From the NCBI RefSeq assembly GCF_003545695.1, contig NZ_QUZZ01000002.1, positions 248,001 through 312,000 on the forward strand: a stretch of DNA of 64,000 bases, in the 5' to 3' direction. Numbering within the stretch: position 1 is the stretch's first letter; each line of letters begins with the position of its first letter. Below, piece after piece: positions 7,543 through 50,641 of the stretch. Origin of the DNA: Taibaiella helva. GTDB taxonomy: Bacteria; Bacteroidota; Bacteroidia; Chitinophagales; Chitinophagaceae. The position numbers and the translations under genes are program-made. The notes below the pieces were generated by a model that did not search any database, was not told the origin of the DNA, and was given only the letters and a program-made list of their open reading frames with translations.

Positions 7543-7635
7543 TGGTAGCTGACCGGTAGCCGGTTCTTAATAGAAAGATCGCCGAACAACCGCCCCATGG
7601 CGCGACAGGGGAGGGCCCTTAACAAAAACATCTTT

Positions 7636-7890
7636 ATGAAAAAGAAAGTAGTGAAGCTGAGCAAGCTCAGCCTGAACAAAGAAACAATCGGATCACTGTC
7701 ATCAGATAAGGTGATCGGTGGTGTATCGGAGCTAGCCAGCTGCATCTGCCTCACCAGGGAATTCATTGATGACACCTGCAGGTTTGGTTGTAGCAATACC
7801 TGTCCCGGACCCAGCAATGGAGACCCCTGCCAGACCGGTGGTTGTCCTTCTATAGATACCCATTGCGCCGGTTGCGGTATCGGCGGATAA
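7636..7890 (+). CDS. Class I lanthipeptide-like precursor peptide (orphan)
   Basis: 84 residues. The leader (about 1-29) is MKKKVVKLSKLSLNKETIGS, then LSSDKVIGG; the LSLNKETI block followed by a GG cleavage motif is characteristic of Bacteroidota class I lanthipeptide precursors (the pinensin type). The 55-residue core is rich in Cys (36, 38, 48, 52, 56, 65, 70, 77, 80) and in Ser/Thr, as needed for thioether rings. The ATG at 7636 is preferred over the longer frame from 7597, because the leader then starts in the standard MKKK form. A second gene with the same leader type is at 16759-16911. No LanB, LanC, protease or exporter is encoded within the window, so modification would need enzymes elsewhere. 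Whether the core is really modified is unknown. A strong hairpin terminator follows at 7944-7978. Confidence 0.75.
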   Translation: MKKKVVKLSKLSLNKETIGSLSSDKVIGGVSELASCICLTREFIDDTCRFGCSNTCPGPSNGDPCQTGGCPSIDTHCAGCGIGG

Positions 7891-16213: not shown

Positions 16214-16696
16214 ATGGATATTCCTAACAACCTGTTCCCGTCCGGGCTTGAAGCGCTCCTCGTCTTCCTGGCCGTATTGATCCTCCTGGTGATCTCCTTC
16301 GTCCTGTACCTGATCACCCTGCAAAATACCCTTAAGGCGATACAGTCCGAAAACCAGCGTATGCCGCCCGGCCAGGTATGGCTGCTGTTCATTCCCCTGT
16401 TCAACCTTGTCTGGCAATTTATCGTCGTCAGCCGTGTGGCATCGTCGATACAGGCGGAGCAAAGGGCGCGCGGTGTCGAATACCCCGATCCTTCAGTCAA
16501 TAATATAGGGCTTACCTATTGTATACTGAACTGCCTGGGCATCATACCGTTTGTTGGTGCGCTGGCCCGGCTGGCCGCCATGGTCTGCTGGATCATTCAT
16601 TGGGTAAAAGTGAATGCTTACCGGAAACAATTCCTGGCGGAGCCCTTCATTCCCCGTGCGGACGACAGCGAAATATTCGGCTATGGGAAACTTTAA
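16214..16696 (+). CDS. Four-helix membrane protein (DUF4328-like)
   Basis: 160 residues. Four hydrophobic segments are visible: ALLVFLAVLILLVISFVLYL, VWLLFIPLFNLVWQFIVV, IGLTYCILNCLGIIPFVGAL and AAMVCWIIHWVKV. The polar loop SRVASSIQAEQRARG and the closing VNAYRKQFL resemble DUF4328-type inner-membrane proteins of unknown function. The long frame upstream (from 16055) overlaps the preceding gene, so I start at the ATG at 16214. A bidirectional terminator follows at 16717-16744, which separates it from the convergent peptide gene. Confidence 0.7.
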   Translation: MDIPNNLFPSGLEALLVFLAVLILLVISFVLYLITLQNTLKAIQSENQRMPPGQVWLLFIPLFNLVWQFIVVSRVASSIQAEQRARGVEYPDPSVNNIGLTYCILNCLGIIPFVGALARLAAMVCWIIHWVKVNAYRKQFLAEPFIPRADDSEIFGYGKL

Positions 16697-16716
16697 GTCA
16701 TTCCTCTTACACAAGA

Positions 16717-16744
16717 AAGCGGCTCCCCGTACAGGGAGCCGCTT
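16717..16744. terminator. Bidirectional intrinsic terminator
   Basis: An inverted repeat AAGCGGCTCCC / GGGAGCCGCTT with a 6-base loop, between the convergent membrane-protein gene (ends 16696) and the 50-residue peptide gene (ends 16759 on minus). Confidence 0.8.
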
Positions 16745-16758
16745 CCGGCTTTTTCATA

Positions 16759-16911
16759 CTACTCAATAACGGCTTGCTGGTCGCAGCAGCACCTTGTTGC
16801 GTATTCCAGTGAGTTTACACCGCCGACAACAGCCTGGGCCTTCTTGCCGTTCAATGCGATAATGGTCTTCTTATCGAGCGAGAGCTTCGACTTTACGATC
16901 CTTTTCTTCAT
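16759..16911 (-). CDS. Short class I lanthipeptide-like precursor (orphan)
   Basis: A 50-residue gene that is easily missed. The product reads MKKRIVKSKLSLDKKTIIAL, NGKKAQAVVGGVNSLEYATR, CCCDQQAVIE. Its leader aligns with that of the peptide at 7636: both have a basic MKK start, KLSL(N/D)K.TI..L, and a V.GGV motif, the hallmark of Bacteroidota class I lanthipeptide leaders. The core after GG is only 19 residues, with Ser, Thr and three consecutive Cys, so at most two dehydratable residues upstream of a CCC cluster. The ATG at 16911 is the natural start, and the TAG stop lies at 16759-16761. There is no modification, protease or transport gene nearby. It may be a real orphan precursor fed to enzymes encoded elsewhere, or a remnant. 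The leader match is seen directly; the function is inferred. Confidence 0.7.
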   Translation of the reverse strand: MKKRIVKSKLSLDKKTIIALNGKKAQAVVGGVNSLEYATRCCCDQQAVIE

Positions 16912-17142: not shown

Positions 17143-17319
17143 ATGAAAAATACCAAACCGCAGGTGCCGGAGAAGCATATGAATCCCGACAACAGGAAGA
17201 GCCGGCCCGATGTACGCGATAACCTCGATAACAGGACAGGTGAAGAGCAGGACGATAAGGGCGATGATGTAACCCACAATAAAAAGGAGCATCACAGCCC
17301 GCCGAAAAAGAAAGAATGA
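17143..17319 (+). CDS. Small hydrophilic protein of unknown function
   Basis: 58 residues, strongly hydrophilic and probably disordered: MKNTKPQVPEKHMNPDNRKS, then RPDVRDNLDNRTGEEQDDKG and HNKKEHHSPPKKKE. No hydrophobic core is present. AAGGAA lies about eight bases before the ATG at 17143, and a clean intrinsic terminator follows at 17341, which together make it a likely real gene despite its size. Such short charged proteins are often stress-related in Bacteroidota, but nothing in the sequence proves that here. Confidence 0.55.
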   Translation: MKNTKPQVPEKHMNPDNRKSRPDVRDNLDNRTGEEQDDKGDDVTHNKKEHHSPPKKKE

Positions 17320-17568: not shown

Positions 17569-18759
17569 ATGCAACTAGCGAAACGACTTGACCGTATTTC
17601 TGAGCCGCAAACGATATTAATGGCCAAGCTTGGCCGCGAGCTGAAAGCGAAAGGCGTACATGTTATCGATCTGAGCCTGGGCGAGCCCGATTTTAAGACA
17701 CCACAGCATATTATTGAAGCAGCAGACAAAGCGATGGAGGAGGGTTATACCAAATACCCGCCCATAGCAGGTTTCCCCGAGCTGAGGCAGGCGATCGTCA
17801 CCAAGCTGCAACGCGACAATCACCTGGATTATACGCCGGAGCAGATCATCGTCAGCACAGGCGCCAAGCAGGTGCTGGCCAATGCTATCCTCAGCATCGT
17901 CAATCCCGGCGATGAAGCGATTATTCCCACGCCCTTTTGGGTTACCTATGCCTCGCTGGTGAGCCTGGCCGAAGGAAAGAATGTGTTCGTGCCCTGTGGC
18001 ATTGAGGACCATTTCAAGATCACGCCCGAAAAGCTGGAAGCTGCCATCACCGAGCGGACGCGCCTGTTCGTGTTTTCTTCGCCCTGCAATCCCAGCGGCG
18101 CGGTCTATTCCCGGGAAGAGCTGAAAGCACTGGCCGAAGTGTTCCAAAAATATCCCGATATCGTCATCATCAGCGACGAGATCTATGAGTATATCAATTA
18201 TGTGGGCAAGCACGAAAGTATTGCGCAATTTACGGAGCTGAAGGACCGTGTGGTCGTGGTGAATGGTTTTTCCAAAGGATTTGCAATGACGGGCTGGCGC
18301 CTCGGCTATATGGCCGGGCCCGTAGAGCTGGTAAAGGCCTGCGACAAGCTGCAAAGCCAGTTCACCTCCGGCGCCAATTCGATTGCGGAGAGGGCAGCCA
18401 TTACTGCGCTGCTGGCCGATCTTACGCCTTCCTTCGATATGGTGAAAGCCTTCAGGGAAAGAAAGGAATTCTTTATCCCTGCCTTGCAGGCGATCAGGGG
18501 CGTGCAGATCAGCGCACCTGAAGGCGCTTTCTATGCCTTCCCCGATATCTCTTCTTTCTACGGCAAATCTAACGGCGCGGCGACCATCAATAATGCTGAC
18601 GATATGGCGATGTACCTGCTCAATACCGCGCATGTGATCGGAGTGAGCGGCGCCGCATTCGGTGATGCCAATTGTATCCGCTTCTCCTTTGCCGCATCGA
18701 TGGAGACCTTGCAGGAAGGCGCCCGCCGCCTTAAAGAGGCTCTGGAAGCACTGCATTAA
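17569..18759 (+). CDS. PLP-dependent aminotransferase, class I (aspartate aminotransferase type)
   Basis: 396 residues, the usual length for subgroup I-gamma aspartate aminotransferases. Recognisable parts are VIDLSLGEPDFKTPQHI, YTKYPPIAGFPELRQAI, IIVSTGAKQVLANAI, the PLP-contact FSSPCNPSGAVYSREEL, SDEIYEYINY, and the Schiff-base lysine in VVNGFSKGFAMTGWRLGYMA. The C-terminal substrate-binding Arg lies in NCIRFSFAASM. It would exchange amino groups between aspartate (or another amino acid) and 2-oxoglutarate in the cytoplasm; the exact substrate cannot be fixed from sequence. It appears to be a single-gene unit bounded by terminators at 17341 and 18825. Confidence 0.9.
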   Translation: MQLAKRLDRISEPQTILMAKLGRELKAKGVHVIDLSLGEPDFKTPQHIIEAADKAMEEGYTKYPPIAGFPELRQAIVTKLQRDNHLDYTPEQIIVSTGAKQVLANAILSIVNPGDEAIIPTPFWVTYASLVSLAEGKNVFVPCGIEDHFKITPEKLEAAITERTRLFVFSSPCNPSGAVYSREELKALAEVFQKYPDIVIISDEIYEYINYVGKHESIAQFTELKDRVVVVNGFSKGFAMTGWRLGYMAGPVELVKACDKLQSQFTSGANSIAERAAITALLADLTPSFDMVKAFRERKEFFIPALQAIRGVQISAPEGAFYAFPDISSFYGKSNGAATINNADDMAMYLLNTAHVIGVSGAAFGDANCIRFSFAASMETLQEGARRLKEALEALH

Positions 18760-31794: not shown

Positions 31795-31823
31795 CACCCG
31801 AAGTTCTTTTTTCAATTATTGCT

Positions 31824-31924
31824 ACTTATCCAGAAAGGTGGAGGGAAATGGCCCGATGATACCTTAGCAACCTATACCAGATATAAGGTGCTAATTCCAA
31901 CTTGCACAAGCAAGGCAGATAAGT
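31824..31924 (+). promoter_or_regulatory. SAM-I (S-box) riboswitch
   Basis: The conserved S-box core is readable: ACTTATC (31824-31830) pairs with GATAAGT (31918-31924) as P1; between them are AGAAAGGTGGAGGGAAATGG, CCCGATGATACCTTAGCAAC and GGTGCTAATTCCA, with the pseudoknot and kink-turn elements in canonical order. It senses S-adenosylmethionine. It lies 160 bases upstream of the trans-sulfuration gene and just before an intrinsic terminator, so high SAM should stop transcription. Confidence 0.95.
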
Positions 31925-31965
31925 CAGGTCACAGCTTTAGAAAGATATCCGCAATCTCTTTATAC

Positions 31966-46761: not shown

Positions 46762-46801
46762 ATCGCCGTTCTAAAAGCTTCAGATGAATATTGGAAAAAA
46801 A

Positions 46802-47163
46802 CTACAAACCCTGTAAGCCGGATTTTGTCCGCCGCAAGCGGCGGTGCTGCCATTTATCTGGGTGTTACCTCGCGGCAACACTCTATCTGCCTACCCGCAG
46901 GCATCGGACGAGCAGCCCTCAATCGCCTGCCTATTGGGCATTTCATCACGCAAGGCTTGCCCATAATTGCAGTTACCTGCAACTATCGTGCGCTCTTACC
47001 GCACATTTTCACCCTTACCCCTCGACAAGCTCGGGGCGGTTATTTTCTGTGGCGCTGTCTGTATTCCCTTTGCAGGGAACCCCATCCGTTAGGTGGTGCG
47101 TCGCTCTGTGCTGTCCGGACTTTCCTCTCTTCCTTTCGGAACAGCGGCAGCACGGGTTTGTAG
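46802..47163 (-). ncRNA. rnpB: RNase P RNA, bacterial class A
   Basis: On the minus strand the 5' end GAGGAAAGTCCGGACAGCAC (about 47110-47131) and the 3' end ACAAAATCCGGCTTACAGGG (about 46808-46827) are the conserved P4 partners. The terminal helix P1 is GGGTTTGTAG (47154-47163) with CTACAAACCC (46802-46811), so the boundaries are supported by pairing. At about 362 bases it has the usual length. With RnpA it removes the 5' leader from pre-tRNA. An upstream TATCTTTG (minus strand, 47169-47176) is a suitable promoter element. Confidence 0.95.
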
Positions 47164-50157: not shown

Positions 50158-50440
50158 TTCCTCTTCCGTTTTCAGGGAAACTGATCAATGTGCTGTTCAA
50201 TATTGGTATAGCGTTGAAATGTTCTCCGGCCGCCGCTTTCCGTAAAGTGTCCAGACGGATGTCTCAAAGTTATTGGTTTATTCCCTTTCGCAATGCATGA
50301 GCTGCTCCGAAAAATATGGCTGTTTACGGGGATATCCTTTGTATGCGCCATTCCTATTTTTGTATTCATCTGCAGATGGCGTGAAGGGATTGCCGAAAAC
50401 CTTGGACAGAGTAGGCGGGAAATATAAAATGAACATTTAA

Positions 50441-50641
50441 ATGAAAAAGCAAGCAAAGCAAATGGCATCGATCAAGGCCTTAAGCGAAATGGACATGCAA
50501 CAGATTACCGGCGGTACGGCCGATTTCTCCGATGTGCAAGGTGGCGTATCTTCAACGGATGAAATGTGGAGCACGACACCAACATGCTTTGGCAATCCTG
50601 ACGGCGGTGATTTCTTTTGCTATTATATGAAGCTTAATTAA
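50441..50641 (+). CDS. Small precursor peptide with GG leader (natural-product precursor type)
   Basis: 66 residues: MKKQAKQMASIKALSEMDMQ, QITGGTADFSDVQGGVSSTD, EMWSTTPTCFGNPDGGDFFC, YYMKLN. The leader LSEMDMQQITGG is the double-glycine type cut by C39/PCAT transporter peptidases and resembles the GG-Bacteroidales precursor family (a basic start, AL.E.em..i.GG). The core of 41 residues has two Cys (49 and 60), a few Ser/Thr, and no strong hydrophobic part. Its leader differs from the LSLNKETI type of the peptides at 7636 and 16759. No transporter or modifying gene lies nearby. A terminator follows at 50661. The coding call is moderately supported by its start and length; the natural-product role is inferred. 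Confidence 0.65.
   Translation: MKKQAKQMASIKALSEMDMQQITGGTADFSDVQGGVSSTDEMWSTTPTCFGNPDGGDFFCYYMKLN

Follow-up and report, generated by a model that had tools for sequence, protein, structure and literature searches.

A three-cysteine precursor gene of Taibaiella helva, a probable orphan class I lanthipeptide precursor with candidate modifying enzymes encoded elsewhere

Overview

A 50-codon gene on the minus strand of the window, the whole stretch of 64,000 nucleotides of Taibaiella helva DNA that was analyzed, is in our judgement from sequence comparison a real gene that is kept by selection. We consider it likely that this gene is an orphan class I LanA of Taibaiella, whose product would be modified in trans by enzymes from other contigs, cleaved by a C39 peptidase and exported. 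The gene itself, the selection acting on it, the class of its leader and the presence of genes of the enzyme families in the genome are established. The features of the window are compiled in Table 1, and the gene product is referred to below as the CCC precursor.

Table 1. Positions of the CCC precursor gene, its parts, its surroundings and the second precursor in the window
Feature	Position	Strand	Remarks
Probable class I lanthipeptide precursor gene (orphan, lanA-like)	16759–16911	–	50 aa plus stop, ATG start
Leader, residues 1–31	16819–16911	–	NF038153 match spans residues 1–31
Core, residues 32–50, VNSLEYATRCCCDQQAVIE	16762–16818	–	first 16 residues same in T. koreensis
Three successive Cys codons (residues 41–43)	16783–16791	–	no other CCC lineage in the 207 Cys-bearing cores read
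Convergent gene for a hydrophobic protein of 160 aa that resembles DUF4328	16214–16696	+	26.1 bits, cut-off 27.2
14-bp hairpin between precursor and convergent gene	16715–16746		fold –27.6 kcal/mol, z –4.6
Divergent gene for a small charged protein (MKNTKPQ...)	17143–17319	+	flank common to T. koreensis and G003
Class I/II aminotransferase	17569–18759	+	in 4 of 4 genus genomes compared
Other class I lanthipeptide precursor gene in the window	7636–7890	+	84 aa, 9 Cys in core
Pseudoknot RNA before the gene at 7636	7577–7616	+	model match

A short gene with a class I lanthipeptide leader

The original prediction of a 50-residue open reading frame on the minus strand, opening with ATG, was borne out, and the residue counts that it had given for the core agree with ours. 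The translation consists of the leader MKKRIVKSKLSLDKKTIIALNGKKAQAVVGG, which ends in Gly-Gly at residues 30 and 31, and the core VNSLEYATRCCCDQQAVIE, in which 19 residues include three adjacent Cys, a single Ser and a single Thr, the bare minimum for two rings. Searched with the NCBIfam model NF038153 (class I lanthipeptide leader, cut-off 22 bits), the leader scored 24.5 bits with an E-value of 2.3e-4 in the whole genome and ranked 45th among the 71 matches of this genome. The peptide encoded at 7636, to which the leader had been likened, scored 31.8 bits, so that both lie over the cut-off and their likeness goes beyond chance.

The leader also carries an LxLxKx5L motif at residues 10–20. 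In the available part of Walker 2020 (PMC7268733), this motif is described for a number of class I LanAs of Bacteroidetes, many of these leaders end in GG, and the cluster often contains a C39-family protease. Read in this light, the motif of the CCC precursor would serve recognition and its Gly-Gly is likely to be a C39 cleavage site. The assignment of the peptide as a lanthipeptide-type precursor, as originally proposed, is supported by the NF038153 leader, the LxLxKx5L motif and the LanB, LanC and C39 genes of the genome.

Other leader types were also considered. The CCC precursor matched only NF038153 and NF038158 together with a sub-threshold PheRS_DBD1 hit (18.6 bits, cut-off 26.2), which was taken as chance, and no Nif11-type leader was found among these matches. 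A radical-SAM type precursor was rejected, as TIGR04149, which we take to be the model of the radical-SAM GG-Bacteroidales precursors, was absent from the NCBIfam matches of the CCC precursor at E ≤ 1.

From its surroundings, the CCC precursor gene appears to stand alone between a convergent and a divergent gene. A sigma-70 scan found no promoter on the strand of the gene. The hairpin toward the convergent gene is a possible terminator for one or both of the convergent genes, and the corresponding interval of T. koreensis holds a hairpin that differs in sequence (z –3.6). A terminator pattern scan accepted the hairpin at 16715–16746 on the plus strand only and found none in the interval of T. 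koreensis, where the downstream hairpin misfits the pattern. The hairpin may therefore serve the convergent gene alone.

Conservation in relatives

Relatives were sought with two short peptide patterns over a collection of genome contigs, a search that has only close relatives within its reach. The genomes of the genus that were compared are the one studied here (G000), one taken as T. koreensis (G002) and two others (G001 and G003). The pattern search gave one relative, the ortholog of Taibaiella koreensis THG-DT86, which is 82% identical over the 50 residues, has the same start, the same stop and the same CCC, and lies in the same place with neighbours that are alike on both sides. A profile made from the two sequences matched 3 of 394 sampled family genomes at 1e-6, at full length only in the present genome and in G002.

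Comparison of the 50 codons, which align without any indel, shows 31 base differences between the two species, and 18 of these fall at third positions. By the NG86 method, dN is 0.12, dS is 0.98 and dN/dS is about 0.12. The first 16 codons of the core contain seven base changes and zero residue changes, a result that was reproduced in none of 100,000 neutral simulations, and Cys 41–43 are the same in both species. Identity to T. koreensis is 79% in the coding sequence, 46% in the 150 bases upstream and 45% in the 100 bases downstream (gaps counted). The ortholog in its place, the low dN/dS, the unchanged core and the poorly conserved flanks argue that the CCC gene is under selection.

A spurious open reading frame might be suspected from the length of only 50 residues and from the antisense frame, which is likewise open and moderately conserved (dN 0.16, dS 0.65). 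Constraint is, however, stronger in the sense frame, and the match to a curated leader model, the synteny, the dN/dS and the island of conservation centred on the frame rule out such an artefact as far as sequence can; we give it next to no credence. Hardly more credible is descent from a longer precursor by decay or truncation, a reading that would suit the shortest Cys-bearing core of 207 and its weak likeness to longer paralogs, for example one with a core starting VTNTEALSAC. Such a pseudogene is largely ruled out by purifying selection (dN/dS 0.12), by the stop shared between two species and by the conserved core, the identity of which (0.89) exceeds that of the leader (0.77). Among 45 ortholog pairs, defined as reciprocal best hits between the present genome and T. 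koreensis among the peptides read, this core identity ranks seventh, the medians being 0.78 for cores and 0.75 for leaders. Conservation of the CCC core thus equals or exceeds what is typical of the other cores.

In G003, the CCC gene is absent within 5 kb beside the aminotransferase gene, though two flanking genes are kept. Of this neighbourhood (5 kb inspected), G001 has kept nothing but the aminotransferase gene, and the CCC gene is missing there too. As one refuting outcome, the original prediction had named a lack of conservation of frame and leader in relatives with shared flanking genes; T. koreensis retains the gene, and the reading survived this comparison. The genome that shares two flanks without the CCC gene, G003, has no LanB, LanC or leader matches.

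Enzyme genes and the leader family

As the original prediction had suggested, the genome was searched for LanB, LanC and C39 genes and for more such leaders. This profile search of the contigs returned two LanB genes, four LanC genes and one C39 peptidase-transporter gene, along with about 70 precursors. The enzyme matches are located on contigs C31–C33 and the CCC precursor on C21, a contig of 599 kb without any LanB, LanC or C39 match; an adjoining LanB or LanC gene, which is usual for a precursor and not obligatory, was not found at the CCC gene. At 194.6–202.6 kb of contig C33, a LanA gene is followed by genes for a full-length LanB (PF04738 and PF14028), a C39-ABC transporter and an HlyD protein, and at 60–65 kb of the same contig a LanA gene is followed by LanC and by a LanB split over two genes. 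Both PF04738 and PF14028 were found in each of the two LanB sets. Jointly, the two sets on C33 are predicted to hold all three activities that the CCC precursor would need.

NF038153 matched 71 places in the genome at E ≤ 10, 65 at E ≤ 0.05 and 48 at 22 bits or more. At E ≤ 10, 5 of 14 control genomes gave matches too, none of them over the cut-off, and at E ≤ 0.05 none of the 14 did. One of the matches of the present genome at E ≤ 10, C27:557449, is doubtful, being a 14-residue stretch inside a frame of 342 residues. No LanB, LanC or C39 match was found within 10 kb on the contig for 64 of the 71 leader matches, and for 44 there was no second leader match within 5 kb. Orphan placement is therefore the rule in this assembly of 34 contigs; this dispersal was measured in G000 alone.

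At E ≤ 0.05, the leader was matched 65 times in G000, 73 times in G001 and 105 times in G002, genomes that have two or three LanB genes each, while G003 showed neither leader nor LanB nor LanC matches. Outside the genus, we found at most seven leader matches per sampled genome, as against at least 19 in each of G000, G001 and G002. The large precursor set is thus special to three of the four genus genomes compared. In the family sample, the leader (E 0.001) was found in 17 and LanB in 45 of 394 genomes. LanB was present in 15 of the 17 leader-bearing genomes compared with 30 of the 377 others (Fisher p = 8e-14, kinship ignored), which indicates that leader and LanB go together; in two of the 17 no LanB was found.

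These distributions bear on an alternative in which the leader would have no use beyond export and cleavage by C39, and the three Cys would act as free thiols, making the product a disulfide-linked dimer or a soft-metal binder with no lanthionine. G003 has a C39 match yet no LanB, LanC or leader matches, and in this one genome the leader thus seems to follow LanB and LanC rather than export. The leader of the CCC precursor, moreover, bears the motif ascribed to class I LanAs. The composition of the core, in contrast, favours this alternative, as set out below.

The CCC core compared with the precursor repertoire

Peptides were read for 70 of the 71 matches of the present genome (one had no locus), 65 of them with a GG split. 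With a purpose-built leader profile, 96 precursor frames were found in the 72 regions for the places listed for G002 and 51 in 28 regions, which cover part of the G001 places. Automatic splitting at GG put some cores wrongly, for example that of C31:276869. In total, 210 cores were read in G000, G001 and G002, and the three without Cys were left out, leaving 207.

Among these 207 Cys-bearing cores, three Cys in a row occur only in the CCC core and its ortholog, which are also the shortest and the only ones of 19 residues or less. Two Ser/Thr or fewer are found in four cores, these two included, and fewer Ser/Thr than Cys in eight, among them the CCC core. In a non-redundant set of 187 cores, CC was observed 48 times where shuffling led us to expect 136, and CCC in one core where 13 were expected. 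The ring layout, which had been called odd from the sequence of this one peptide, is indeed so by comparison, with adjacent Cys depleted and a sole CCC lineage among the peptides read.

We also analyzed the spacing of Ser/Thr and Cys. In 166 non-redundant cores, Ser/Thr occurred five residues before Cys 332 times as compared with 179 expected (z 13.5), while no excess was observed five residues after Cys (160 vs 178 expected). The signal was present in each genome alone (z 7.0, 10.3, and 8.9) and stayed at z 11.2 after exclusion of any Ser/Thr that follows another Cys by one or two residues. Ser/Thr two residues after Cys were enriched as well (254 vs 193, z 5.2), suggesting that other composition rules are also at work. 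A one-sided signal over five residues is what thioether rings closed from N to C would leave, and the preference for Ser/Thr-x4-Cys together with the avoidance of adjacent Cys may reflect a favoured ring size.

The [ST]x4C spacing is present in 177 of the 210 cores and missing from 30 of the 207 that bear Cys, the CCC core among them. In this core, Thr39 precedes the three Cys by 2, 3, and 4 residues and Ser34 by 7, 8, and 9. In the pooled cores, offsets of 3 (z 4.7) and 4 (z 3.7) are mildly and 9 (z 2.4) weakly favoured, 2 (z –0.5) and 8 (z 0.4) are not favoured, and 7 (z –2.4) is disfavoured; taken by itself, G001 disfavours offset 3 (z –2.6). Without an [ST]x4C pair, with fewer Ser/Thr than Cys and with a Cys run that is otherwise avoided, the CCC core may be a poor thioether substrate.

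The same features speak for the export-only use of the leader described above: just one Ser and one Thr face three Cys, CC and CCC are depleted to the extent given, no [ST]x4C pair is present, and Cys 41–43 are nevertheless the same between species. Weighed against the leader motif and the pattern in G003, we regard this alternative as unlikely, though it deserves more weight than any other.

Cys-rich cores are typical substrates of enzymes such as MNIO/DUF692 and radical SAM proteins. Another RiPP enzyme of this kind could accordingly act on the Cys cluster by way of this leader. No such enzyme was recognised among the neighbouring open reading frames scanned, however, and the leader matched only lanthipeptide models in NCBIfam, so that we consider this explanation very unlikely.

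A further odd pair of precursors was seen in the same repertoire. G000:C21:365039-365125 and its counterpart L202 in G002 have a core nearly devoid of Ser/Thr that ends in SYGCTL and contains a single Cys.

Proposed maturation and product

For the orphan class I LanA that we favour, the following route is proposed. The CCC precursor is probably transcribed on its own. One LanB and one of the four LanC proteins, encoded on other contigs, would recognise the KLSLDKKTIIAL leader in trans, and the C39 peptidase-ABC transporter would cut after Gly-Gly and export a product of 19 residues. As at most two thioethers can be formed from Ser34, Thr39, and Cys41–43, the product would keep at least one free thiol. 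From the Ser/Thr-Cys spacings that the repertoire favours, the ring most to be expected would be a small methyllanthionine that joins Thr39 to Cys42 or Cys43. As to its role, we can only guess at a secreted signalling or antagonistic peptide, possibly reactive toward metals or thiols.

More speculatively, the CCC gene may represent one lineage of a prochlorosin-like class I system, with about 65 to 105 LanA genes and two or three LanB genes per genome, that has been retuned for free thiols. A small ring at Thr39 would then leave neighbouring Cys for contact with a metal, a redox partner or a second peptide in a dimer, and selection would keep this arrangement even though consecutive Cys are avoided elsewhere in the repertoire. 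We put this forward tentatively, as an idea that is rather improbable in all its parts.

Relation to known systems

The CCC precursor shares with the class I LanAs of Bacteroidota, as far as these are covered by NF038153 and by the available part of PMC7268733, the leader model, the motif and the GG, and its genome contains genes for LanB, LanC, and a C39 transporter. It differs from them in that its gene lies apart from LanB and LanC and that its 19-residue CCC core has two Ser/Thr and no [ST]x4C spacing. Class I lanthipeptides of Bacteroidota likewise include, according to the available text on them, the PedA15 group of Pedobacter lusitanus NL19 (Bothwell 2021; Caetano 2020), of which PedA15.2 was freed of its leader by the GG-cutting protease LahT150 according to the part of PMC12328550 at hand.

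The nearest parallel in layout to the Taibaiella precursor set is provided by the prochlorosins. In the accessible portion of PMC10783134, these class II peptides and the synechococsins are described with 29 precursors for ProcM and 79 for SyncM, scattered in the genome. Like them, and within the limits of that source, the present genome has few enzyme genes and dozens of mostly distant precursors with common leaders and divergent cores. The prochlorosins are, however, class II, with LanM and a Nif11 leader, whereas the present genome is one of the Bacteroidota and has LanB/LanC and an NF038153 leader. Our literature search, with the primary work on Pedobacter lusitanus outside its scope, found no prochlorosin-like class I system, and we make no claim to priority; it found no paper combining 'lanthipeptide' and 'Taibaiella'.

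In its own search, as Walker 2020 (PMC7268733) states in the part available, precursors were looked for no more than seven genes away from a protein with a LanC domain. A gene of 50 residues without a nearby LanC escapes LanC-centred precursor searches. With about 70 such genes in one genome, the chemical repertoire of these Bacteroidota may far exceed cluster-based counts. The conserved CCC core also offers a test of the core variation that LanB and LanC accept and of thiol-bearing products.

RNA elements upstream of precursor genes

In 25 of the 216 precursor genes read (nine in the present genome, nine in G002, and seven in G001), a pseudoknot RNA of the type CGCTGAACAACCNCCCCATGGCG...AAAGACAGGGGAGGA lies about 30–40 bases upstream of the start codon. 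The 25 loci were chosen by the presence of GACAG in this interval. In the two-helix pseudoknot, 94.8% of cells pair, compared with 44–51% when the alignment was slid by 1–3 columns, a lenient control, since the structure was drawn from the same sequences. Changes on both sides were found in 27 cells, and none of 500 shuffles reached these two values or the covariation score. However, 155 of 500 shuffles attained as many double-change pairs (five), and 4 of 500 as many further pair types.

Rfam gave no family match at the elements of 11 loci at E ≤ 1, nothing but a chance-level antisense match for one element at E ≤ 10, and no match at the pseudoknot element when the window was searched at the gathering score. 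At E ≤ 0.01, the pseudoknot model had matches in 15 genomes of the 394 in the family sample. Of the 14 loci that lie outside the genus, eight have the element ahead of a small open reading frame of 45–85 codons, six of these with GG in the leader position, and the other six loci showed no such frame. The pseudoknot is a candidate cis-regulatory element for secreted peptides. The model found no match upstream of the CCC gene, where a single GACAG, in a different context, is located 74 bases ahead of the start codon.

The window also contains a DUF805b RNA (Rfam RF02914) at 50383–50417 of the plus strand (36.7 bits, gathering score 35.6), which has GCCGAA and GACAG stretches in common with the pseudoknot RNA. 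Just after it, at 50441–50641 (+), lies an open reading frame for 66 amino acids with a different GG leader (MKKQAKQMASIKALSEMDMQQITGG). Further Rfam matches in the window are an ordinary SAM riboswitch at 31823–31925 (+) and an equally ordinary RNase P RNA at 46798–47163 (–).
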